64,000 bases of DNA, from assembly GCA_016192455.1 (NCBI GenBank), contig JACPUC010000008.1, forward strand, positions 270,297 through 334,296, read 5' to 3'. Source of the DNA: Candidatus Tectimicrobiota bacterium (GTDB lineage: Bacteria > JACPUC01). Both the position numbers and the translations under genes were made by a program. Within the stretch, counting starts at the first letter, position 1. The number at the start of each line of letters is the position of its first letter. Under the pieces are notes generated by a model that did no database searches, was not told the DNA's origin, and saw nothing but the letters and a program-made list of their open reading frames with translations. Positions 5,436-41,784 of this stretch are shown here, piece after piece.

Positions 5436-5867
5436 TAAGCAGAGCCGAGGCGCGCCAACGCCGCTTCGGGGGCGCGATCCGCGCGTGGTCACAGCATCGC
5501 CGCGCCAGGCGCCGACGCCAGGCGCGTTGGCGTGGCATCGCTGCCGCTCGGTGAGCAGGGGGTGTGGGGGATCCTTAGATCCCCCACCCATTACTCCCGC
5601 ACCGATTTCACTTCCGACAAAACACCTCTCCTGGCATGTTCGTGAACGCCGCAGAAGCAATCAAGGGAAGAAAATCTGCCTCGTTCGTGTTATATTGAGA
5701 AGTAAAGACGAGGAGGGAGGCTCCATCGTGCGCGGAGCTGGCGGCCGGAGAGTGATGGCGTGAGCCGCCGCTCCCAGGGTCCAGGCAGCCAGATCACGCC
5801 GCGGGGACGAGCCGCGGGGGGCCGAGGGGCGCCTCGGCTATCGTCAGGCAACGCACTCATTCAGAAA
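5436..5867 (+). other. Intergenic region upstream of ssrA
   Basis: No gene is seen. A 9-bp hairpin around 5562-5583 (TGGGGGATC...GATCCCCCA) could end the cytochrome transcript, but it lacks a U-tract. An extended -10 like element (TGTTATATT, near 5688-5696) lies 170 nt before the mature tmRNA 5' end, and a GC-rich hairpin (GCCGAGGGGCGCCTCGGC) lies just upstream of it. If this promoter is used, tmRNA is processed from a longer precursor; no consensus promoter is visible directly at the mature 5' end. Confidence 0.3.
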
Positions 5868-6235
5868 GGGGGCGAACTGGGTTCGACGGGGGTAATTGAG
5901 CGTTTTGCTGCATGCCGAGGTCGTCACCAACCTCGTAAATCAGGTGGCACACCAAGCAAGTGCGGAAACCGAAGCACTTCCTCTGGCTGCGTAACAACTC
6001 GGCCAGCGTTCTCCCTGCCCGCGCCTCTGGGGTGGGATGAGGGCGTCATAAACAGAGACTAGCGCCGCAGGTTCCGCCTGGCTGCCTGTCGCGCGAACCA
6101 ACGCCGGACTAGGGACCGGTTGTATCCCCCGCCCGTGGGAGTGACCGGCCCGAAATATCCAATAACGAGGCTACGCATGTAGACGCACGGCGTGAAGACC
6201 TTCGGACGCGGGTTCGATTCCCGCCGCCTCCACCA
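5868..6235 (+). ncRNA. ssrA: tmRNA (transfer-messenger RNA)
   Basis: The 5' end reads GGGGGCGAACTGGGTTCGAC and the 3' end GGGTTCGATTCCCGCCGCCT followed by CCACCA. The seven terminal bases on each side form an acceptor stem that includes the G3-U70 pair recognised by alanyl-tRNA synthetase; the T-arm is GCGGG/CCCGC with a TTCGATT loop and CCA is encoded. PK1 is visible as CGAGGT/ACCTCG with CACC pairing to GGTG. The tag frame from GCA at 5956 to TAA at 5992-5994 encodes ASAETEALPLAA; resuming at GCA 5947 would add AHQ. About 190 nt of its 3' part recurs at 12767-12956, and no terminator follows the CCA here, consistent with an island inserted at the end of the gene. Confidence 0.95.
6046..6235 (+). 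repeat. Left copy of 190-bp ssrA 3' direct repeat (attL-like)
   Basis: This is the 3' half of the functional tmRNA gene. Aligned without gaps to 12767-12956 it shows 8 substitutions in 190 bp (about 96% identity), with the terminal 35 bp including the T-arm and CCA identical. The two copies bracket the cusCBA island in direct orientation, as expected for insertion at a tmRNA gene that regenerates a functional 3' end. Confidence 0.9.
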
Positions 6236-6629: not shown

Positions 6630-6742
6630 CTCCCTGAAACACCAAGTGCCGCGGCCGTTTGTCTCTGACAGACGGTGATGGGGTTGTCCGCGCGCGTGAA
6701 GCCTTGCTTCATTGCCGCGCGCTCCTCGAAGGGAGTTGGTCT

Positions 6743-8026
6743 ATGCATTTTCCCGAATCTGCCACCCGGCCAGGGCGGTCTGTTGCGTACCGCGTGGCCG
6801 TGACGGTCCTGCTGGCAAGCCTGAGCGGCGTGGCTAACGCCGATGCCCTTTCATTTCAGGAGGCGCTGGCTTTGGCTTTGCGCGAGACGCCGGTCCTGAG
6901 GGCGAACACCGCCCAGGTCGATGCCGCCACCCAAGCGGCGATTCCCGCGGGAGCACTGCCGGACCCCAAACTCGCGCTGGGTGTCGACAACCTGCCGATT
7001 GACGGCCCCGACCGCTACAGCCTGAGCCGTGATTTCATGACCATGCGGCGCATCGGCGTGATGCAGGAGTTTCCCAACCGGGCCAAGCGCAAGGCGCGTG
7101 TGGCGGCCGCGCAGGGCCGGGTGGCCGTGGCCGAGGCGCAGACCCGCGTCACGCGGTTGACCGTACTGCGGGAGGTAGCGGTCGCCTGGATCGCGCGCGG
7201 CAGCATCGAGCGCCAGCTTACGCGCAGCGATGCCCTCCTGGCCGAAAACCGCCTGTTCGAAGCGGCCGTGCGCGCGCAGCTCGCGGCTGGCAAAGCTGCA
7301 GCGAGCGAGGTGGTCGCGCCACGGCAGGAAGCCGCGCTGATCGAAGAGCGCCAAGACGTCCTGCGCGCGCAGCGCGAGCAAGCCCTTGCACAGTTACGGC
7401 GCTGGATCGGACCAGCGGCGCAGGCGCCGCTGACAGGCGTGGTTCCTGACTGGCCTATCGAACGCGATGGGCTGCTGCGCCGCCTGCGCCAACACCCGGA
7501 ACTGGCCGCGTTCGACCCCAAGGCCCGTGTTCTCGAGGCGGAACGGGCCGAGGCACAGGCGGCCAAGAAACCGGACTGGGCGCTGGAATTGGCCTACCAG
7601 CAGCGCGGCCCGCAGTTTGGCGACATGGTGTCACTGCAAGTCAGCTTCGACTTGCCGCTGTTCGCCGGCTCGCGCCAGAACCCGCAGATCGCGGCCAAAC
7701 TGGCCGAGCGGACCGCGCTTGTGGCCGAGCGCGAGGCCATGCTGCACGAACACGCGGCCGCGCTTGAAGCGGATTTCGCCGAGTACCAGCGCCTTGTGAA
7801 TGCCGTCCAGCGCCAACGTGAGGTGCTGCTGCCGCTGGCCGAGGAGAGGGTGACGCTCGCGCTGGCCGGCTGGCGCGGGGGCAAAGGCAGCCTGACCGAA
7901 CTGATCGCCGCCCGCCGCGAACGCATCGACGCTGAACTCAAAGCCATCGCACTGGAGGGCGAACGTCAGCAGATGGCCGCCCGCCTGCACTACGCCTATG
8001 GCGACATCGCCGGAGAACAAGGATGA
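6743..8026 (+). CDS. cusC: Outer-membrane factor of Cu/Ag RND efflux system (CusC/CzcC-like)
   Basis: A 427-aa TolC-superfamily outer membrane factor that would form the exit duct of the tripartite exporter. After a signal peptide (VAVTVLLASLSGVANA) comes the OEP repeat pattern: LSFQEALALALRETPVLRANTAQVDAA, LPDPKLALGVDNLPI, and the second repeat SLQVSFDLPLFAGSRQNP. The ATG chosen is preceded by GGGAG at 8 nt. The stop overlaps the start of the next gene (ATGA), showing translational coupling. Its identity as part of a Cus-type rather than Czc-type system rests on the neighbouring CusA/CusB, since outer membrane factors alone do not give specificity. Confidence 0.85.
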   Translation: MHFPESATRPGRSVAYRVAVTVLLASLSGVANADALSFQEALALALRETPVLRANTAQVDAATQAAIPAGALPDPKLALGVDNLPIDGPDRYSLSRDFMTMRRIGVMQEFPNRAKRKARVAAAQGRVAVAEAQTRVTRLTVLREVAVAWIARGSIERQLTRSDALLAENRLFEAAVRAQLAAGKAAASEVVAPRQEAALIEERQDVLRAQREQALAQLRRWIGPAAQAPLTGVVPDWPIERDGLLRRLRQHPELAAFDPKARVLEAERAEAQAAKKPDWALELAYQQRGPQFGDMVSLQVSFDLPLFAGSRQNPQIAAKLAERTALVAEREAMLHEHAAALEADFAEYQRLVNAVQRQREVLLPLAEERVTLALAGWRGGKGSLTELIAARRERIDAELKAIALEGERQQMAARLHYAYGDIAGEQG

Positions 8027-9510
8027 AACATCCCAAGAAAATCTTGCTGATACCCGTCGTCGCTTCCGCGCTGCTGGCGCTCGGCGCAACGGGCGGAGGG
8101 TGGTGGGCGAGGCACGACGCCAGGTCCGCCAGCACGGCAGCGCACGCGCCGCAGGCCGCCGCGCAGACTGAGCGCAAGGTGCTGTACTGGTACGACCCGA
8201 TGGCCCCGCAGCAGCGCTTCGATCAACCCGGCAAGTCGCCGTTCATGGGCATGGAACTGGTGCCCAAGTATGCCGATGAGACCGACAAGGGCAGTGGGGT
8301 CAAGATCGATCCCGCAGCGATCCAGAACCTCGGTGTGCGACTGGCCAAAGTCGAGCGCATGCCGCTGGCGACTCAGGTCGGGGCTACCGGTCTCATCGCT
8401 TTCAACGAGCGCGACGTGGCGGTGGTGCAGAGCCGGGTTGGCGGCTTCGTCGAGCGAGCCTGGCCGCTGGCCCCGGGCGATGTCGTGAAGGCTGGCCAGC
8501 CCCTGGTGGAATTGCTGGTGCCGGAGTGGGCCGCGGTCCAGCACGAGTGGCTGGCGCTGCGATCCGTCGGTGACGCGGCGCTGCAGGCCGCCGCAAGCGA
8601 GCGGCTGCGCCTTTCGGGTATGCCGGAGGCCCTCATTCGCGAAGTCGAGCAAAGCGGCACAGCGCGTTCGCGCTATACGGTGACCGCGCCCATCGGCGGC
8701 GTGGTGCAGGCCCTCGAGGTGCGCGCAGGCATGACCGTGATGGCGGGACAGACGCTGGCGCGCCTGAATGGACTGTCCACGGTATGGCTGGACGTCGCGG
8801 TGCCCGAGGCGCTGGCCGATGCGGTGCGCGTGGGCAGCCGAGCCCAAGCGCGACTGCCCGCTTTCCCCGGACAACTCATCGAAGGTCGAGTGACCGCGAT
8901 CTTGCCAGCGCTGCAAGAAACCACACGCAGTCTGCGGGTGCGGGTGGAGCTGCCGAACCCGAACGGCCGTCTGCGTCCCGGCCTGTCCGCCCAGGTGACG
9001 CTCACCTCGCCGTTGCAGGACACCGCGCTCGCCGTACCGACCGAGGCGGTGATTCGCACCGGCCAACGCGCCCTCGTGATGGTGGCGCAGGACAACGGGC
9101 GATTCATGCCGGTGGAGGTCACGCTGGGCCGCGAGATCGGTGACCGCACCGTGATCGCCGCGGGACTCGCCGAGCGGCAGCACGTGATCGCCAGCGGGCA
9201 GTTCCTGATCGACTCGGAGGCGAGCCTGCGCGGCATCGTTCTTGGCGCGGCGAGTGAGCCGGCGGCCATGGCCTCCACCGCATTGCACGAGGCCGACGCC
9301 ACGATCGAAGCGATCGAGGGCAACAAGATCACGCTCGCGCATGGGCCGTTCAAGACGCTCGCCATGCCAGGCATGACGATGGCGTACCCGCTGGCCAATC
9401 CTGCCTTGGTCCAGGGCCTGAAAGTCGGCGACAGGGTGCGCATCGGTGTGCGCCAGACGGATGCGGGCCTCGTGGTCGAGCGTCTCGAACAAACACGAGG
9501 TGGTAGATGA
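8023..9510 (+). CDS. cusB: RND periplasmic adaptor CusB with heavy-metal-binding and fused CusF-like domains
   Basis: A 495-aa membrane fusion protein. An N-terminal signal/anchor (residues 7-27) is followed by a heavy-metal-binding domain (about 54-84: [24 protein letters not shown]), then the barrel-sandwich and beta-barrel domains ([40 protein letters not shown]). The C-terminus (about 420-495) is a CusF-like OB-fold carrying the methionine-rich motif [10 protein letters not shown], so the Cu(I)/Ag(I) chaperone is built into the adaptor; the tryptophan of E. coli CusF is not evident. The gene overlaps cusC and cusA by 4 nt on each side. Substrate is most likely Cu(I)/Ag(I). Confidence 0.9.
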
Positions 9511-12500
9511 TCGCCCAACTCATCCACTGGTCGGTCGCCAACCGCTTTCTGGTGCTGCTGACGACCTTGTTCCTCACGGTCTGGGGCATCTGGTCGGTCA
9601 CGACCATACCCATCGACGCGCTGCCCGATTTGTCCGACGTGCAGGTGATCATCCGCACGAGTTACCCGGGCCAGGCGCCGCAGATCGTCGAGAACCAGGT
9701 GACCTACCCTTTGGCCACCACCATGCTGTCGGTGTCCGGCGCCAAAACGGTACGCGGCTTCTCCTTTTTTGGCGACAGCTTCGTCTACGTGCTGTTCGAG
9801 GACGGCACGGACCTGTACTGGGCGCGCTCCAGGGTGTTGGAATATCTCAACCAGGTGCAGGGGCGATTGCCGGCCACCGCCAAGCCCGCCCTGGGGCCGG
9901 ATGCCACGGGTGTGGGCTGGATCTACCAGTACGCGCTGATCGACAAGACCGGCCGGCACGATCTCTCGCAACTACGCGCGCTGCAGGACTGGTTCTTGAA
10001 GTTCGAGCTGAAGACCCTGCTCAACGTCGCCGAAGTCGCCACCGTCGGCGGCATGGTTAAGCAATACCAGATCGTGCTCGACCCGGTGAAGCTCGTGAGC
10101 CTCGGCATCACGCACGAGCAAGTGATCGACGCCTTGCGCCGCGCCAACCAGGAAACCGGTGGGTCCGTGCTCACCCTGGGCGAAACGGAACTGATGGTGC
10201 GCGCCAGCGGCTACCTGAAGTCGATCGACGATTTCCGCGCGATTCCGCTCAAGCTCGAAGGCGGCGTGCCGGTGACGCTTGGCGATGTCGCCCACATCCA
10301 GCGCGGCCCCGAGATGCGGCGCGGTATCGCCGAACTCGACGGCGAAGGCGAGGTGGTGGGCGGCGTGGTCGTCCTGCGCTCGGGCAAGAACGCGCGCGAG
10401 ACGCTGGCCGCCGTGCACGCCAAGCTCGAATCCCTCAAAGCCAGCCTGCCCAAGGGTGTGGAGATCGTCACCACCTACGACCGAGGCGCGCTCATCGACC
10501 GGGCCATCGACAACCTCTCGTACAAGCTGATCGAGGAGTTCATCGTCGTCGCGCTCGTCTGCGCGCTGTTCCTGTGGCATCTGCGTTCGTCGCTGGTGGC
10601 CATCGTGTCCCTGCCGCTCGGGGTGTTGATCGCCTTCATCGTCATGCGCCATCAGGGCATCAACGCCAACATCATGTCGCTGAGCGGCATCGCGATTGCT
10701 GTGGGCGCCATGGTCGATGCGGCCGTGGTGATGATCGAGAACGCCCACAAAAAGGTGGAGGTCTGGCAGCACGCGAATCCGGGCGAGACACTCAAGGGCG
10801 ACGCGCACTGGCAAGTGATGACAGAGGCAGCGGTCGAGGTGGGTCCGGCGCTGTTTTTTTCGCTGCTCATCATCACCCTGTCTTTCATCCCCGTGTTCAC
10901 CCTGGAAGCGCAGGAGGGGCGCTTGTTCGGGCCGCTCGCCTTCACCAAAACCTATGCCATGGCGGCCGCGGCGGCCCTCTCGGTGACGCTCATCCCGATC
11001 ATGATGGGCTACTGGATACGCGGCAAGCTGCCGGATGAGTCGCGCAATCCGCTCAACCGCTGGCTGGTGCGTGCTTATCACCCGCTGCTGGATGCGGTGC
11101 TGGCACGCCCCAAGCTCACGCTCGTGCTGGCCGTGCTGCTCACCCTCACCGCGGCCTGGCCGATCAGCCGCCTCGGCGGCGAATTCCTGCCGCCGCTCGA
11201 CGAAGGTGATCTGCTCTATATGCCAAGCGCGCTACCGAACTTGTCAGCCCAGAAGGCCGGCGAGATATTGCAGCAGACTGACCGCATGATCAAGACCGTC
11301 CCCGAAGTGGCGCGCGTGTTCGGCAAAGCAGGCCGCGCCGAGACCGCCACGGATCCGGCGCAGTTGGAGATGTTCGAGACCACGATCCAGTTCAAACCGC
11401 GTGATCAATGGCGGGCGGGCATGACGGCCGCGAAGCTCGTGGAGCAACTGGACCGGGCCGTCCAGGTGCCGGGGCTGACCAACATCTGGATTCCGCCCAT
11501 CCGCAACCGCATCGACATGCTCGCCACCGGCATCAAGAGCCCCATCGGCGTCAAGATTGCCGGGACCAATCTGGCCGATATCGACCGCGTCGCGCAGCAG
11601 GTGGAACGCATCGCCAAAACCGTGCCCGGCGTCTCATCGGCGCTGGCCGAGCGCCTCACCGGCGGGCGCTACGTCGATGTCGAGATCGACCGCGCGGCTG
11701 CCGCCCGCTACGGGCTCAACATCAGCGAAGTGCAGTCCGTGGTGGCGAGCCTCATCGGCGGTGAAAACGTCGGCGAGACCGTGGAGGGCCTGGCGCGCCA
11801 TCCGATCAATGTCCGCTATCCACGCGAGTGGCGCGACACGGTGGAGCGTCTTGCGCAACTGCCCATCGTCACGCCCATGGGCAGCCAGCTCACGCTGGGC
11901 ACGGTGGCACGCGTCAAGGTCACCGACGGCCCACCCTTCCTCAAGAGCGAAAACGCGCGCCCCAGCGGCTGGGTGTACGTCGATGTGCGCGGCCGCGATC
12001 TGGCCTCCACGGTGGCCGATCTGCGTGCGGCGGTCACGCGCGAGGTCAGGCTCGAACCTGGCATAAGCCTGGCCTATTCCGGTCAGTTCGAGTTCATGGA
12101 ACGCGCCAACGCGCGGCTCAAACTCGTGGTGCCGGCCACCTTGCTGATCATCTTCGTGTTGCTGTATCTCACCTTCGCCCACTTTGACGAAGCCTTGCTG
12201 ATCCTCGCCACGTTGCCCTTCGCGCTCACCGGCGGCGTGTGGTTCCTGTACCTGATGGGCTTCAACCTGTCGGTTGCCACTGGGGTGGGCTTCATCGCGC
12301 TGGCCGGGGTGGCGGCAGAGTTTGGGGTGGTCATGCTGATCTATCTCAAGCACGCCTGGTACGACCGGATCGATGCCGGCCAAGCGACCGAGTCCGGCCT
12401 GCTCGATGCGATCCGCGAAGGTGCCGTGCTGCGTGTGCGGCCCAAGGCGATGACGGTGGCCGTCATCGTTGCCGGCCTCTTGCCCATTCTGTGGGGGAGC

Positions 12501-12659
12501 GGCACAGGCAGCGAGGTGATGAGCCGCATTGCCGCTCCCATGGTGGGCGGCATGGTCAGCGCGCCGCTCTTGTCCTTGTTCGTTATTCCCGCAGCGTACC
12601 GGCTGATGCGCCGCCGGCAACTTCCCTCAGCCACTCATCCGCAAACGAAAAGAGACTAA
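9507..12659 (+). CDS. cusA: Cu(I)/Ag(I) RND efflux pump CusA
   Basis: A 1050-aa inner-membrane proton-driven pump. It is strikingly close to E. coli CusA in the first 450 residues ([75 protein letters not shown]). The proton-relay motif GAMVDAA in TM4 places the key Asp at residue 404. Twelve TM segments and two large periplasmic loops fit the HME-RND family length. It is the last complete gene of the cusCBA operon; three nucleotides after its stop begins a truncated ORF (see 12662). Metal preference is inferred from similarity to CusA. Confidence 0.95.
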
Positions 12660-12772: not shown

Positions 12773-12956
12773 ACAGAGACCAGCGCCGCAGGTTCCGCCT
12801 GGCTGCCTGCCGCGCGAACCAACGCCGGACTAGGGACCGGTTGTATCCCCCGCCCGTGGGAGTCACCGGCACGAAGCACCCAATAACGAGGCTACGCATG
12901 TAGACGCACGGCGTGTAGACCTTCGGACGCGGGTTCGATTCCCGCCGCCTCCACCA
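12767..12956 (+). repeat. Right copy of ssrA 3' fragment (displaced tmRNA 3' end, attR-like)
   Basis: Same length as 6046-6235 and about 96% identical, including the T-arm and the encoded CCA, but there is no tmRNA 5' half, PK1 or tag upstream. Weaker similarity to the PK2 region of ssrA (TCTCCCTGCC...) extends leftward to about 12715 with indels, so the shared segment is larger than a minimal recombinase core. It is followed immediately by an intrinsic terminator, suggesting that this is where the original gene ended. It cannot make a functional tmRNA on its own. Confidence 0.9.
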
Positions 12957-12966
12957 ATTCGCCGCA

Positions 12967-12994
12967 AGGCCAACCGGTGACGGTTGGCCTTTTT
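12967..12994 (+). terminator. Intrinsic terminator after the ssrA 3' fragment
   Basis: AGGCCAACCG-GTGA-CGGTTGGCCT is a perfect 10-bp stem with a tetraloop, followed by TTTT. It lies 10 nt after the CCA of the displaced ssrA 3' end and is probably the ancestral ssrA terminator. Confidence 0.85.
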
Positions 12995-13094
12995 AGTTGA
13001 GTAGGCTGTCGTTTCGGTCCTTCCCCCTTTGGAGGAAGGACTGAAACGCAAGATGAAGGCACGTCACCATCCGAAAGCCGGGAAACCCTCCCTG

Positions 13095-13138
13095 TTCCAT
13101 AATGTAGGTAATTATTGACAACTACCTACATTTTGGAA
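13095..13138 (+). promoter_or_regulatory. Operator of the AbiE toxin-antitoxin operon (16-bp inverted repeat)
   Basis: TTCCATAATGTAGGTA (13095-13110) and TACCTACATTTTGGAA (13123-13138) form an inverted repeat with one mismatch in 16, separated by 12 nt that contain TTGACA. It sits just before the antitoxin start. AbiEi antitoxins are known to autoregulate by binding inverted repeats at their own promoter, so this is the expected operator. Confidence 0.75.
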
Positions 13139-13150
13139 CACCATGCCTGC

Positions 13151-13750
13151 ATGGAATCTTCTCACCAAGCTCTCCTCGACCTGGCCAAGCACCATGGTCT
13201 GATACGCCCGCGCGACCTGGCGCCCCTGGGGATTTCACGGGTTGCCCTGACACGGCTTGTGCGCCGCGGGATGCTCGAGCGGGTCGGCCGTGGCCTCTAT
13301 GCGCTTCCAGACCGGTCCGTCTCCGAGCATGCTGCTCTGGCCGAGGTCGCCCGCAAGTACCCGCAGGGAGTGATCTGCCTGCTGTCGGCACTGCGATTCC
13401 ACAACCTCACCACCCAGTCCCCCTTCGAAGTCTGGCTGGCAATTCCGAACAAGGCCCGCGCGCCCCGGCTCGAGTACCCACCGCTGCGGATCGTGCGATT
13501 CTCCAGCCAGGCTCTTATCGAAGGCATGGAGGAGCACGTGGTCGACGGTGTTCCGGTCCACGTGACCACCGTTGCCAAGACGGTGGCCGACTGCTTCAAG
13601 TACCGGAACAAGATCGGCCTGGACGTAGCTCTCGAAGCGCTACGGGAGGCGTGGAGAGAGAAGCGCGTCAGCATGGACGAGCTATGGCGCTATGCCCGGG
13701 TCTGCCGGGTCAGCAATGTGATGCGGCCTTATCTCGAAAGCCTGACGTGA
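13151..13750 (+). CDS. abiEi: AbiEi-type antitoxin / transcriptional regulator
   Basis: A 199-aa member of the type IV toxin-antitoxin AbiEi family. The N-terminal winged helix-turn-helix (LIRPRDLAPLGISRVALTRL, then VRRGMLERVGRGLYALPD) binds DNA. The C-terminal domain (VICLLSALRFHNLTTQSP, VHVTTVAKTVADCFKYRNKIGLDVALEALREA) is the antitoxin part. The start chosen is the ATG of MESSHQALL; an upstream in-frame start lies inside the operator. The stop overlaps the GTG start of the toxin gene (GTGA), showing translational coupling. It represses the operon and counteracts the nucleotidyltransferase toxin encoded next. Confidence 0.88.
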   Translation: MESSHQALLDLAKHHGLIRPRDLAPLGISRVALTRLVRRGMLERVGRGLYALPDRSVSEHAALAEVARKYPQGVICLLSALRFHNLTTQSPFEVWLAIPNKARAPRLEYPPLRIVRFSSQALIEGMEEHVVDGVPVHVTTVAKTVADCFKYRNKIGLDVALEALREAWREKRVSMDELWRYARVCRVSNVMRPYLESLT

Positions 13751-14648
13751 ACAAGCGGAACATGGCGGCCTCGGTGCGCGCCCGGTTGCTCGACAAGGCC
13801 CGTGCCGAAAAACTGGACTTCAACCTCCTCCTCACCCGTTACGCACTGGAACGCCTCCTCTATCGGTTGAGCACCTCGCTTTACGCCGATCAGTTCCTGC
13901 TCAAGGGCGCACTGCTGTTCGACCTATGGTTCGGCATTTCACACCGACCAACCCGCGATGCCGATCTGCTGGGGCTCGGTTCGGCAGAAGTACGGCACAT
14001 CGACACCGTGTTCCGAGGACTATGTGCGGTTGCGGTTGACGACGGAATTGTCTTCCAACCGGAATCGGTACGTGTCGAGGAAATCCGCAAGGAGGCCACA
14101 TATCCCGGTGTGCGCGTGACTCTCGTGGGCCTGATCGAGAAGGCGCGCTGCCGGTGCAGGTTGACATTGGTTTCGGCGATGCTGTCACGCCGGGTCCAGA
14201 AGCCATTGAGTACCCGGTAGTGCTTGCCGATCTGCCGGCGCCGAGGCTGCGCGCGTACCCGCGATATTCGGTGATCGCCGAGAAACTTGAAGCAATTGTG
14301 TCGCTCGGCATTGCCAACAGCCGCATGAAGGACTACTTCGACCTGCGGATCCTGGGCAGGTACAGCGATTTCGACGGCGGCATCCTCTGCCAGGCGATCC
14401 GCGCTACCTTCGATCGGCGGAACACGCCGCTACCGGAGGGTGTGCCGCTCGGCCTGTCTGACGAGTTCGCGCAGGATCGGCGGAAGCAGGTGCAATGGCA
14501 GGCATTCTTGAAGAAGAACGTGTTGACCGCCACCACGCTGGCCGAGGTCGTGGCATCGCTGAGGGCGTTCCTGATGCCGCCGCTCGATGCGCTTCATCAA
14601 GAAGCGGAGTTCCCACGACGGTGGCGAGCCGGTGGCGTGTGGGAATAG
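13747..14648 (+). pseudogene. abiEii: AbiEii-type nucleotidyltransferase toxin, interrupted by a one-base frameshift
   Basis: The first part (from GTG at 13747) gives LLTRYALERLLYRLSTSLYADQ, FLLKGALLFDLWF and RPTRDADLLG, the nucleotidyltransferase core with its acidic residues. It runs to VTLVGLIEKARCR and then stops being family-like near 14147-14150. In the next frame the protein resumes as VQVDIGFGDAV, VIAEKLEAIVSLGIANSRMKDYFDLRIL to 14648. One missing base would restore KARLPVQVDIGFG and a normal toxin of about 300 aa. It may be a real inactivation, leaving the antitoxin alone, or a sequencing error. Family knowledge: such toxins transfer nucleotides (GTP-binding; cytidylyl transfer to tRNA in some) and cause growth arrest or abortive infection. 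Confidence 0.85.
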
Positions 14649-18571: not shown

Positions 18572-18621
18572 TGGCCCGGTGAGCTGCCCCGCCTCCCCAG
18601 CCTTTGGAAAGGTTCCGGAGC

Positions 18622-19860
18622 ATGCCGCACTTTCGAGATCCTCTTCCCACCTCTGGACGGACGAGGGAGGTTTCCCCGTCAGCGACCCAGGGGAACGGCT
18701 CAGCCACGGCCGGAGCCGCGGAGGCCGCCGCGCCTGCCCCAGCGGCCGTGCCGCGGTTGACCACCCCTATCGTGGGGCCGCGGGAGCAGTTCGACCAGCG
18801 TCAGCAGAACCATACCCGCATCTCCCTCGGCGAGCTGGGGGAGAAGGCCGCTGCCGCCTGGAACAGCGAGTCGGTCGATCCCTTCCGGCGCATCTTCTAC
18901 CCGCTCAACCGGCCGCAAAATGTCGCCATGCGCTCCTGGCTGAAAGTGGCGGATGGGCCGCTCAACCCGCAGCGGGTCGAGGTGCGCAACCCGGCGAAGA
19001 TGTCCGAGATTATCAAGGGAGTGGGGAAGTTCCTCGGCGCCAGCGAGGTGGGCATCTGCGAGCTCGACCCGGCGTACGTCTACAGCCACCGCGGCCTGCG
19101 CATCGACTTCTACAAGGGGCGCGCCGGCACGCCGATCACCCTCACGCACCGCTACGCTATCTCCATCCTCATCGAGATGGACTACCCGAATTTCCGCAAC
19201 TCGCCGGGGTTCATCGATGACGCCGCGGTGGGGAAGGGCTACCTGGAGACGGCGAAGGTGGCCGTCTCCCTGGCCGGGTATATCCGCGAGCTCGGCTACC
19301 CCGCCAAGGCGCACTTCCACCTCGAGGAGGAGGTGCTGCACATCCCCATCGCCGTCATGGCGGGGTTGGGCGAGCTGGCCCGCAACGGCTCCATGATCAC
19401 CCGCAAGTACGGCCCGCGCCACCGCCTTGCCACGGTGACGACCGACCTCCCCCTGGCCGTCGACCAGCCGGTGGACCTCGGCGTGCAGAAGCTCTGCCGC
19501 ATGTGCACGAAGTGCGCCGTGAGCTGCCCGGTGCAGGCGATCCCGAAGGAGAACGAGCTGCCCGTCATTCGCGGCGTGCAGAAGTGGTACCTCGACAACG
19601 ACGCCTGCGCCACCTACTGGACCGCCAACTGGAAGCGCTGGAACTCCTGCGCCCGCTGCATCGCCGTCTGCCCCTGGAACCGCCCGTGGAACCGGCGGCA
19701 GCGCCTCGCCACCTGGCTGGTGCCGCGCTCGAAGCTGGCGCGCCGCCTCCTCTTGAAGCTCGACGACCTGCTGCGCGGCAAACGACCCAACCCGCAGGTC
19801 GAGTGGCTCTACTATAAGCAGAAAGGCGTGAAGGACGCCGGACTCTACGTGGTGGAGTGA
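18622..19860 (+). CDS. Reductive-dehalogenase-like cobalamin/Fe-S protein, soluble type
   Basis: A 412-aa protein. The C-terminal half has the RdhA ferredoxin signature: C292-x2-C295-x2-C298-x3-CP, then C329, C343-x2-C346-x3-CPWN. Just upstream come ELARNGSMITRKYGPRHRLATVTTDLPL and the spacer GVQKWYLDN, typical of reductive dehalogenases rather than epoxyqueuosine reductase. The N-terminal half (about 85-265) corresponds to the corrinoid-binding nitroreductase-like core. There is no twin-arginine signal, only a low-complexity Ala/Pro-rich N-terminus, so the protein is likely cytoplasmic, and no RdhB anchor is adjacent. Between an aryl-CoA ligase and an MBL-fold enzyme, a role in reductive removal of halogen (or another group) from an aromatic CoA ester is plausible but unproven. 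ATG chosen because of AAAGG 9 nt upstream. Confidence 0.8.
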   Translation: MPHFRDPLPTSGRTREVSPSATQGNGSATAGAAEAAAPAPAAVPRLTTPIVGPREQFDQRQQNHTRISLGELGEKAAAAWNSESVDPFRRIFYPLNRPQNVAMRSWLKVADGPLNPQRVEVRNPAKMSEIIKGVGKFLGASEVGICELDPAYVYSHRGLRIDFYKGRAGTPITLTHRYAISILIEMDYPNFRNSPGFIDDAAVGKGYLETAKVAVSLAGYIRELGYPAKAHFHLEEEVLHIPIAVMAGLGELARNGSMITRKYGPRHRLATVTTDLPLAVDQPVDLGVQKLCRMCTKCAVSCPVQAIPKENELPVIRGVQKWYLDNDACATYWTANWKRWNSCARCIAVCPWNRPWNRRQRLATWLVPRSKLARRLLLKLDDLLRGKRPNPQVEWLYYKQKGVKDAGLYVVE

Positions 19861-19943
19861 CGGCGGCGTCGTGCTGCCGCTGCTTCACCCCGTCCCTCGC
19901 TCAAATCCCGCCACCATGCACCACTGCGTTTAGGGACGACCCG

Positions 19944-21491
19944 ATGTCGAAGATGACCCCACCCGCCGCCACCCGCCCCTTCCCAGGCCGCATGCCAGCC
20001 GGCATGCCGAACCCCTTCGGCAAGTTGCGGTACGGCTCCTTCCAGCAGCTCACCCCTTCCTGCTACATCTTCCGCAACATCGTCAACTCCGGGGTGGTGA
20101 TCACGGCGGACGGCGTGGCCGTGGTGGACACGCAGATCAACGAGCCGATGGCGCGGCGGCTGCTGGCGGCGATCCGCGGCGTGACGGACGCGCCCATCCG
20201 CTACGCCGTCAACACCCACTACCACTGGGACCACTGGGCCGGCAACAACGTCCTGCGCGAGGCCGGCGCCACCCTCATCTGCGGCGCCTTGACACGGCAC
20301 TTCATGGAGGTGCGCAACCGGCGTCAGCGCGCCTTCCTGCAATCGCGCGGCTTCTCGCTGCCGCCTGATGATCCGGCAAAACCAGACGTCACGTTCGAGG
20401 GCGAGCTGACCCTGCGGCTCGGCACCGTGCCGCTCCACCTCCTGTTCCTGGGACGCGCCGAGACGGATGATGCCACGGCCGTCTGGGTGCCCACGGAGCG
20501 CTGCGCAATGAGCGGCGATACGCTCATGACCGGCAGCTTCCCCATCCTCGGCCAGCCGGTGATGAACGAGGGTCTCTCCGACAACCGAGACTGGATCAAA
20601 ACCCTCCAGCGCCTCAAGTCCCTTGACCCGGAGCGCATCATCCCCGGTCATGGCAACCCGGGCGGGAATGCGGAGATCGACTTCTTCATCGAGCTGCAGG
20701 CATACTTCCTCGACGCCGTGGCGGCGCTCCTCGATGAGGGGCTGCCGCCGCACACCATCATCGAGCGCGTCGAGGCGGAGCTGCCCGAGCGCTACGCCAG
20801 TCTCGCCGAGGTATGGGGAACACCGCGCTACGCCATCCTGCGCGTGCTCCACAGCATGACCGGCTGGCAGCAGGTGAAACCCTCCGCCCTGCCAGCGGCG
20901 CGGCCCGACGAGGTGGCAGCCGCCCTCGCCGCGCTCGAACCCGATGCGTCCCGCTACATCGAAGCTGCTCAGGAGGCGGAACCGGGGAACCCCGGCCTCG
21001 CCCTGGCGATCATGGACGCGGCGGTGCGCGAGTTTCCCAACGATCCCCTGCTCTGGGTGCGGCGCGGCCAGCTCTACCTGCAGGGCTCGCGCAACGCGCG
21101 CTCCGTGCTGGAGCGGGGGGACTACTTCATCGAGGTGCGCCGCTCCGCGGAACGCGCCCTGGCGTGTGATCCGGAGTGCGCGCCCGGGCTCGTGCTCCTG
21201 GGGTCGTACCTGGCGATGGGGGCGTACCGAAACGGCGATGATCCCGCCGAAGCAATGACCTACCTCAGCAAGGCTCTGCGCACGAGCCTCTCGCAGCGCG
21301 ACGAGGCGAAGGTACACTGCTACCTGGGTCTCTGCTGTCGCGCCCGAGAGGATGAGGCATCGGCGCGCGCTTCGTTCGAGAAGGCGCTGGAGCTTGACCC
21401 CTCGTACATGCCGGCTCGGCTGGCGATGCTGGGGGGGCAGGAGGAGGCGTCGAACGAAGCCGGCGCTCGCCAGGAAGACAGCACTCAGTAA
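19944..21491 (+). CDS. MBL-fold metallohydrolase with C-terminal TPR region
   Basis: A 515-aa protein. The N-terminal metallo-beta-lactamase fold shows the metal motif H92-Y-H94-W-D96-H97 (NTHYHWDHWAGN), MSGDTLM for the bridging Asp, and IIPGHGNP for the late histidine. Residues about 330-500 are tetratricopeptide-like helices (NPGLALAIMDAAVREFPNDPLLWVRRGQ; ARASFEKALELDPSYMPAR). The overall layout resembles alkyl-sulfatase/SoxH-like MBL proteins with helical extensions. A GTG overlapping the previous stop would add 29 residues of unconvincing sequence, so I prefer the ATG at 19944. It is probably co-transcribed with the CoA ligase and RdhA-like genes; substrate unknown (thioester or other ester hydrolysis is possible). 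Confidence 0.75.
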   Translation: MSKMTPPAATRPFPGRMPAGMPNPFGKLRYGSFQQLTPSCYIFRNIVNSGVVITADGVAVVDTQINEPMARRLLAAIRGVTDAPIRYAVNTHYHWDHWAGNNVLREAGATLICGALTRHFMEVRNRRQRAFLQSRGFSLPPDDPAKPDVTFEGELTLRLGTVPLHLLFLGRAETDDATAVWVPTERCAMSGDTLMTGSFPILGQPVMNEGLSDNRDWIKTLQRLKSLDPERIIPGHGNPGGNAEIDFFIELQAYFLDAVAALLDEGLPPHTIIERVEAELPERYASLAEVWGTPRYAILRVLHSMTGWQQVKPSALPAARPDEVAAALAALEPDASRYIEAAQEAEPGNPGLALAIMDAAVREFPNDPLLWVRRGQLYLQGSRNARSVLERGDYFIEVRRSAERALACDPECAPGLVLLGSYLAMGAYRNGDDPAEAMTYLSKALRTSLSQRDEAKVHCYLGLCCRAREDEASARASFEKALELDPSYMPARLAMLGGQEEASNEAGARQEDSTQ

Positions 21492-21563
21492 GGGAACGGC
21501 GGGTTGACGAGCGTGAGAAGAACGGGGAGGGAGGGTCCCTGCGACAGAGAACCTTGCTGCCGC

Positions 21564-21621
21564 AAAAAAATTAAGGGACCGAGAACAACTTCGGGGGGGC
21601 AGGAGGTGCCCTCGGTCCCTT
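21564..21621 (-). terminator. Minus-strand intrinsic terminator
   Basis: AAGGGACCGAG (21573-21583) pairs with CTCGGTCCCTT (21611-21621) over 11 bp with no mismatch; read on the minus strand the stem is followed by TTAATTTTTTT. On the + strand no U-tract follows, so it does not serve the upstream + strand gene. Confidence 0.65.
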
Positions 21622-21866
21622 CGCCTACTCCGCAACTACCCGGCGTCGTAGTCGGCTGTGTCGGCTGAGGCTCTGCCGGGTAATTGCAGAGCAAGCTGTC
21701 CGCAACAAGGAACTATGTCATAAGTCCTGCGAGAGCCACCGGAATCGAGGTCGGCTGCATCGGCATCGGCTGGTGACTCTCGCTTGGGCTTCTGAACGGT
21801 CCAGGGAATTGGAGGAGGAGGTCTATCCCAACTGTTCCGTTCGGGTTGTAATATGGACTGGACCGC
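21564..21866 (-). ncRNA. Predicted structured RNA on the minus strand (four hairpins plus terminator)
   Basis: Four successive inverted repeats lie between the MBL gene and lysR: 21797-21804/21858-21865 (8 bp), 21729-21740/21772-21783 (12 bp), 21628-21643/21676-21691 (16 bp) and 21573-21583/21611-21621 (11 bp). In the 12- and 16-bp stems, all three non-Watson-Crick positions are C-A on the + strand but G-U on the minus strand. The last hairpin is followed, on the minus strand only, by TTAATTTTTTT. The two middle loops share CAGCCGAC and further AGCCGA/GCCGAT copies. Together this points to a minus-strand RNA of about 300 nt with an intrinsic terminator. No known Rfam family is recognised. Confidence 0.55.
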
Positions 21867-21874
21867 GGTATAAT
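21846..21874 (+). promoter_or_regulatory. Promoter of the LysR gene
   Basis: TTGTAA and a perfect TATAAT are spaced by 17 nt, about 80 nt upstream of the LysR start, in an AT-rich patch that contrasts with the surrounding GC-rich DNA. It overlaps the first hairpin of the predicted minus-strand RNA, so the two transcripts could interfere with one another. Confidence 0.65.
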
Positions 21875-21952
21875 GCAATCGAAAATATTTAATTTTATCT
21901 ATTAGAATGGCTGATTGAAGGGCTGGTGACGGCCCAGCACGGGAGTCGGGCC

Positions 21953-22876
21953 ATGGACCTGTTGAACTTCAAGATCTTCTGCGATGTCGTGGAGACCAGG
22001 AGTTTCACCAAGGCGGCGGCGCGGAACTACCTCTCCCAGTCAGCGGTGAGCCAGCAGGTGCGCTCGATTGAGGAGGAGCTCAATGAGACGCTGATCAACC
22101 GCGGGCGCGGCACGCTCGAGCTCACCGAGGCCGGGGAGATTTTCCTGGTGGGAAGCCGCAGCATCCTGCAGAGTTTCGAGGAGATCAAGGCGCGGCTCGC
22201 GGCGACGAAACGCGAGGTCAGCGGCGCCATCCGCATCTCCAGCACCTACAGCATCGGCCTCTATGAGCTGCCCCCCTACCTGCAGCGGTTCATCCAGCTC
22301 TACCCCAACGTGCAGATGAGCGTGGACTATCGCCACACCCCCGATATTTACGAGGACGTGATCAGCAAGCGCGTTGACCTGGGGTTTGTCGCCTACCCAT
22401 CACCTCGGCCGCAGCTCACCATCCACCCCTTCCGGGAGGACCGTCTGACGCTGGTGTGCCATCCTGACCACCCCTTCAGCAAGCTGAGCAGCATTGATCC
22501 TCGGCAGCTCCACGAGCAACCGTTCGTCGCCTTCAGCCGCGTCACCCCGACGAGCAAGGCGATCCGCCGCATCCTCAAGCGGGCTCACGCGCAGGTCCGC
22601 ATCGTCATGGAGTTCGATAACATCGAGCTCATCAAGCGCGCCGTGGAGATCAACGGCGGCGTGTCGATTGTGCCCTGGCACACCATCCTGCCGCAGGTGC
22701 AGAATGGCGTGCTCGCCGCGGTGCCGCTGCGCAACGCCAACGATCTGCGTCCCCTCGGTGTGCTGCTGCGCAAGGAACGCATCCTCCCCACGGCGGTGCT
22801 GCGATTCCTTGATCTGCTCGAAGAGCCGCTCGACATCGCGAACCACATGAAGGCGAGCAAGTCCGCGGGCCGCTAG
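21953..22876 (+). CDS. LysR-family transcriptional regulator
   Basis: A 307-aa LysR protein. Residues 2-60 form the winged HTH (LNFKIFCDVVETRSFTKAAA, YLSQSAVSQQVRSIEEELNE), and residues about 90-290 the periplasmic-binding-like effector domain (RISSTYSIGLYELPPYLQRF; ISKRVDLGFVAYPS; VEINGGVSIVPWHTIL). It follows the CysB/Cbl-like general layout, but the effector is unknown. The start is the ATG preceded by GGGAG. It lies downstream of the predicted structured RNA and before a thioesterase on the same strand; the upstream CoA-ligase/RdhA operon is a possible target. Confidence 0.9.
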   Translation: MDLLNFKIFCDVVETRSFTKAAARNYLSQSAVSQQVRSIEEELNETLINRGRGTLELTEAGEIFLVGSRSILQSFEEIKARLAATKREVSGAIRISSTYSIGLYELPPYLQRFIQLYPNVQMSVDYRHTPDIYEDVISKRVDLGFVAYPSPRPQLTIHPFREDRLTLVCHPDHPFSKLSSIDPRQLHEQPFVAFSRVTPTSKAIRRILKRAHAQVRIVMEFDNIELIKRAVEINGGVSIVPWHTILPQVQNGVLAAVPLRNANDLRPLGVLLRKERILPTAVLRFLDLLEEPLDIANHMKASKSAGR

Positions 22877-41582: not shown

Positions 41583-41591
41583 CGTAGTACC

Positions 41592-41626
41592 CCACGAATT
41601 TCGCGCTCTCAATTCGTGGAGATTTT
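41592..41626 (+). terminator. Intrinsic terminator after the M16-family gene
   Basis: CCACGAATT (41592-41600) pairs with AATTCGTGG (41611-41619), perfect 9 bp with a 10-nt loop, followed by AGATTTTT. It lies 10 nt after the stop codon. Confidence 0.75.
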
Positions 41627-41784
41627 TACCGCGAGGGAACCTCGCCCCCTCGCGCACCCCATGTACGCGAGCTGCGCGGTAGCCCGCGCAGCCCCCACGC
41701 CCCCCCGGCGTGCCTGAGGCTTTCACCACCTCACCACATTCCCGCCACCCCTTCCGTCAGCGTCTCCCTCGACGAGCCTCACTC

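Follow-up and report, generated by a model that had tools for sequence, protein, structure and literature searches.

The 464-nt spacer lying upstream of a LysR-type regulator gene in a Candidatus Tectimicrobiota bacterium raises the question of whether it encodes a structured RNA of its own, and on which strand. It belongs to a window of 64,000 nucleotides, the whole stretch analysed here and the source of all positions below, which is the final part of a 334-kb contig. The genome (4.46 Mb, 88% complete, GC content 67%) is the sole representative of its phylum in the genome set searched. The spacer (21492-21955) separates two (+) strand genes. One encodes a metallo-beta-lactamase (MBL)-fold plus TPR protein (19857..21491) and is convergent to the predicted RNA; the other is the LysR-type regulator gene (ORF 21926..22876; LysR_substrate 7.6e-46, HTH_1 1.5e-19), divergent to the RNA and probably starting at the ATG at 21956. 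The lysR promoter that an earlier note on this DNA had read as TTGTAA-17-TATAAT is present as a promoter-like site at 21846..21874 (+). Every called gene from 2646 to 28563 is on the (+) strand. Thus, the minus strand holds no nearby gene that the element could lead, and an mRNA leader is excluded by the orientation of the neighbouring genes. At 18604-19860, the window also encodes a protein of the reductive dehalogenase family (TIGR02486, above cut-off), next to a CoA ligase of the AMP-binding type.

The predicted sRNA covers about 320 nt of the (-) strand (21564..21884), from a weak promoter-like site to a U-tract. This site, TTCAAT-16-TAAAAT (21892..21919, (-)), is the best on the minus strand; its score of 8/12 falls below the 9/12 threshold of the promoter scan, and it would place the transcription start near 21884. 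Folding recovered the four hairpins in a row that the earlier note had described on this strand. HP0 (21794..21842, (-)) is the weaker one, with pair probabilities of 0.89-0.98 in its outer helix and 0.43-0.45 in its inner helix, and its loop region contains the anti-Shine-Dalgarno-like ACCUCCUCCUCC. HP1 (21729..21783, (-)) has a 12-bp stem including one G-U pair and a 31-nt loop with AGCCGA repeats (pair probability 0.98-1.00). HP2 (21623..21696, (-)) has an unbroken 22-bp stem including four G-U pairs and a 30-nt loop with CAGCCGACACAGCCGAC (pair probability 1.00). HP3 (21573..21621, (-)), with the loop CCUCCUGCCCCCCCGAAGU, is terminator-like, and its 15-bp stem (pair probability 0.97) is made of a perfect 11-bp part followed by two G-U pairs and two further pairs. 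Mean pair probabilities of HP1, HP2 and HP3 were 0.97-1.00 in each of four folded stretches. Two of the stem lengths given earlier were right, the 12-bp stem and the perfect 11-bp stem, the latter as part of HP3, whereas the supposed 16-bp stem is the 22-bp stem of HP2. The U-tract TTAATTTTTTT follows the last hairpin at 21564..21574, on the minus strand only as had been claimed, and overlaps HP3, whose final two bases are the first two U of the tract. Read directly, the GC-rich HP3 and the immediately adjoining UUAAUUUUUUU have the build of an intrinsic terminator. The automatic terminator scan lists none for the element because the HP3 loop exceeds the permitted length (8 at most).

For 21540-21900, the predicted folding energy of the minus strand is -145.5 kcal/mol (z -7.24), a stability reached by none of 100 shuffles. 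The plus strand of the same region is also better than its shuffles (z -3.77). The strands differ in their imperfect pairs, which the earlier note had given as G-U on the minus strand and C-A on the plus strand: over HP1, HP2, HP3 and a further helix, P1, we counted 8 G-U and 0 A-C on the minus strand, as the note had it, and the chance of such one-sidedness is 2^-8 = 0.004 given equal odds for both strands. No other stem in the window, on either strand, is as long as that of HP2; in four shuffled windows the longest stems were of 14-17 bp. Background statistics were drawn from sampled stretches of the same genome totalling about 534 kb; among their 436 spacer strands (218 spacers), the element spacer ranks second by summed stem length, and the sole spacer above it is twice as long. 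Strong folding alone is not unique, as three other spacers of the window (12935-13104, 41608-41777 and 5436-5605) reach similar scores (best z -5.6 to -7.4). The features that set the element apart are its G-U strand signature, its single copy and its repeat-bearing loops. Among the other structured spacers, that at 41583-41784 is very hairpin-dense, lies between convergent genes and has a plus-strand z of -7.4.

The loops carry two kinds of motif. Three copies of CAGCCGAC, four of AGCCGA and five of GCCGA are present, every one of them within the loops of HP1 and HP2, in line with the five AGCCGA/GCCGAT-like copies reported earlier for the middle loops. The outer loops, those of HP0 and HP3, carry ACCUCCU, with 2 copies observed against 0.02 expected. 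Four AGCCGA copies were reached in 0 of 5000 dinucleotide shuffles and two ACCUCCU copies in 0 of 5000 shuffles, counts that are somewhat generous because the k-mers were picked after inspecting the sequence. The likeness between the HP1 and HP2 loops exceeds that in all 3000 shuffles (0/3000), and a 33-nt stretch covering these loops is directly repeated (73%), the stems being otherwise different. As to the previous proposal that the repeated loop motif is a binding site, the two loops are clearly more alike than chance would give, but the search for mRNA targets of the AGCCGA loops found none that exceeded the background of shuffled loops. At gene starts, none of the four loops gave targets better than shuffled loops. 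ACCUCCU is the usual anti-Shine-Dalgarno core, a general consensus that may not be the 16S 3' end of this host. The 16S gene was only partly found in the host assembly. Of 421 called genes, 94 have a Shine-Dalgarno-like motif ahead of them, versus 29 in the control stretch, and such sites therefore exist in the host, if not as the dominant type.

One candidate target lies next to the element. The HP3 loop sequence CCUCCUGCCCCCCC has a perfect 14-nt complement, GGGGGGGCAGGAGG, in the MBL-fold gene (21431..21444, (+)). A scan of 423 whole genes with the HP3 loop placed this adjacent gene first (-37.4 kcal/mol, the next at -32.4 kcal/mol), with the caveat that C-rich loops easily pair with G-rich sequence in a genome of 67% GC. 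The exact 13-mer core occurs three times in the genome, namely in the element, in the MBL-fold gene and at one site on another contig. As the match was found post hoc, with one loop of four singled out, we regard it as a lead only.

Beyond the U-tract, the stretch 21543..21563 (-) is predicted to pair with 21698..21719 (-), forming the 3' and 5' strands of helix P1, which encloses HP2 and HP3. P1 comprises 17 predicted pairs with small interruptions, with probabilities of 0.78-1.00, mostly above 0.95. Pairing of this strength appeared in 1 of 3000 flank shuffles and in 20 of 5000 background stretches, some of which possibly overlap the P1 site itself. Because of this pairing past the U-tract, the 3' end of the RNA may not sit there; the modelled helix may reflect either occasional transcription through the U-tract or an inverted repeat at the DNA level. 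The earlier description was incomplete in that both this helix, past the supposed 3' end, and the ACCUCCU of the outer loops were missing from it.

The element has no coding character: a protein-coding reading was rejected, as the minus-strand ORF shows a third-position GC of 0.53 versus 0.88 for lysR and has no family match. At the gathering threshold, Rfam 15 returned only the tmRNA in the window, which upholds the statement that no known family fits. With relaxed thresholds, the element matched BjrC68 (RF02353) only, and this best Rfam score was 23.2 bits (E 0.0006-0.001), short of the gathering score of 39. Among divergent housekeeping RNAs, RNase P RNA and tmRNA were also discarded, RNase P RNA being found elsewhere in the genome and tmRNA at 5868-6235. 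BLAST with the whole element gave short weak matches only, both against 98 genomes and in the search for a second copy in its own genome. A covariance model of HP2-HP3, run on 386 genomes including the host, detected no homologue in the 385 others; the best outside match (26.8 bits) was inspected and judged to be generic GC-rich hairpins without a U-tract. Plasmid and phage records gave one short match at chance level, and occurrences of a degenerate 20-mer loop pattern in 74 viral contigs were taken as chance. The LysR relatives are too distant for a comparison (best 47-48% identity), their upstream genes differ and no syntenic spacer was found. A search for an Hfq gene gave no match in the 88%-complete host genome.

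Several known systems offer points of comparison. The OxyS gene is divergent from oxyR. The gcvB gene is divergent from gcvA, the LysR-type gene of its activator, and terminators form part of the layout (PMC1557403). The element is similar to GcvB and OxyS as a predicted RNA gene divergent from a LysR-type gene, with several stem-loops and a 3' terminator; it differs in having no sequence or structure match to them and in a host without detected Hfq. The rhizobial SmelA075 and SmelA099 sRNAs consist of several hairpins showing anti-Shine-Dalgarno loops, CCUCCUCCC, on variable stems (PMC3927594). Here too, hairpins in a row show an anti-Shine-Dalgarno loop sequence on differing stems. However, CCUCC is found only in HP0 and HP3 and not in each loop, the inner hairpins carry AGCCGA instead, and Rfam gave no match to a family of this kind. 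BjrC68 shares one hairpin followed by a terminator-like hairpin, but its fit requires long insertions in both loops, and the matched UACCCGGCA is mostly stem in the element and mostly loop in BjrC68. The resemblance to GcvB/OxyS and to the rhizobial anti-Shine-Dalgarno sRNAs is one of layout.

Taken at the level of sequence, these data support a structured minus-strand RNA, divergent from lysR, with a loop motif beyond chance. We consider that the locus is probably a stand-alone sRNA gene of about 320 nt on the (-) strand, divergent from lysR and ending at an intrinsic terminator formed by HP3 and the U-tract. Transcription of the minus strand would start from the site divergent to lysR, and the neighbouring LysR protein might, like GcvA with GcvB, control the RNA from the promoter region that the two genes share. 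The RNA would use its loops for base-pairing: those of the outer hairpins, which are C-rich, could cover Shine-Dalgarno sites or, alternatively, the HP3 loop could cover the G-rich stretch of the neighbouring MBL-fold mRNA, and the two AGCCGA loops may present one common sequence to a putative partner. A more elaborate version, which we hold as decidedly speculative, is a lineage-only regulatory RNA that the adjacent LysR protein switches and that has two domains, each with an anti-Shine-Dalgarno loop and an AGCCGA loop; its 3' half would end at the U-tract or, when read through, close via P1, and its last loop would regulate the neighbouring metallo-hydrolase mRNA. As an intergenic sRNA candidate the element is credible and of an ordinary kind, with a clean anatomy and in an isolated lineage. 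Should it be transcribed, such a lineage, without detected Hfq, would have an sRNA not described before, and its clear layout would let specific loop mutations be designed; if not, it is another structured spacer.

The strong folding of other window spacers invites another reading, namely that the hairpins exist at the DNA level and belong to a REP/MITE-like palindromic element or its relic. P1 is indeed laid out like terminal inverted repeats, here of a 177-bp insertion (21543-21719), and palindromic spacer elements occur elsewhere in the genome. Such elements are multi-copy, however, whereas this one is single, with short weak matches elsewhere. By eye there is no clear target-site duplication, the supposed boundary has the AGCCGA loop repeat on either side of it, and all wobbles are G-U on one strand. 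We thus find this origin unlikely, while giving it some weight. The palindromic spacer elements on other contigs include GTAGGGGCGG...CCGCCCCTAC and CTCTGCGCCTCTGCGG.

The convergent layout and the 14-nt perfect complement in the adjacent gene, the best of 423 genes, would also suit a cis-antisense or convergent-terminator element that tunes or stops the MBL-fold gene and has no distant targets. The minus transcript would overlap the 3' UTR of the MBL-fold mRNA, the HP3 loop pairing within the coding end, and the terminator scan found no plus-strand terminator after that gene. The AGCCGA loops and HP0 are left unexplained by this role, and the common 22-nt stretch could be due to chance or to a duplicated G-rich run. 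As a replacement for distant targets we judge it quite unlikely; it is compatible with a stand-alone sRNA, and both may hold. Finally, as the flanking genes are both (+) and the plus strand folds better than its shuffles, the hairpins could belong to a transcript reading through from the MBL-fold gene into lysR. This is highly improbable: on the plus strand the 22-bp stem has four A-C breaks and the U-tract is absent, and lysR has a good promoter-like site of its own. The stand-alone sRNA gene remains the reading that we prefer.

Further observations concern the tmRNA region of the window. A nearly identical repeat of the final ~118 nt of the tmRNA gene (5868-6235) is present downstream at ~12841-12957, and the gene and this repeat flank a CusC/CusB/CusA-type metal efflux operon (6659-12659). 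The region has the appearance of an island that inserted at ssrA; the genes scanned there include no integrase. Next to the tmRNA repeat are genes for an AbiEi antitoxin-like and an AbiEii toxin-like protein (13115-14648). Only profile positions 103-229 of 238 are covered in the AbiEii match, which may mean a truncated gene or a mis-called start. The tmRNA encodes the tag peptide AETEALPLAA, which differs from the common tags of the AANDENYALAA type.
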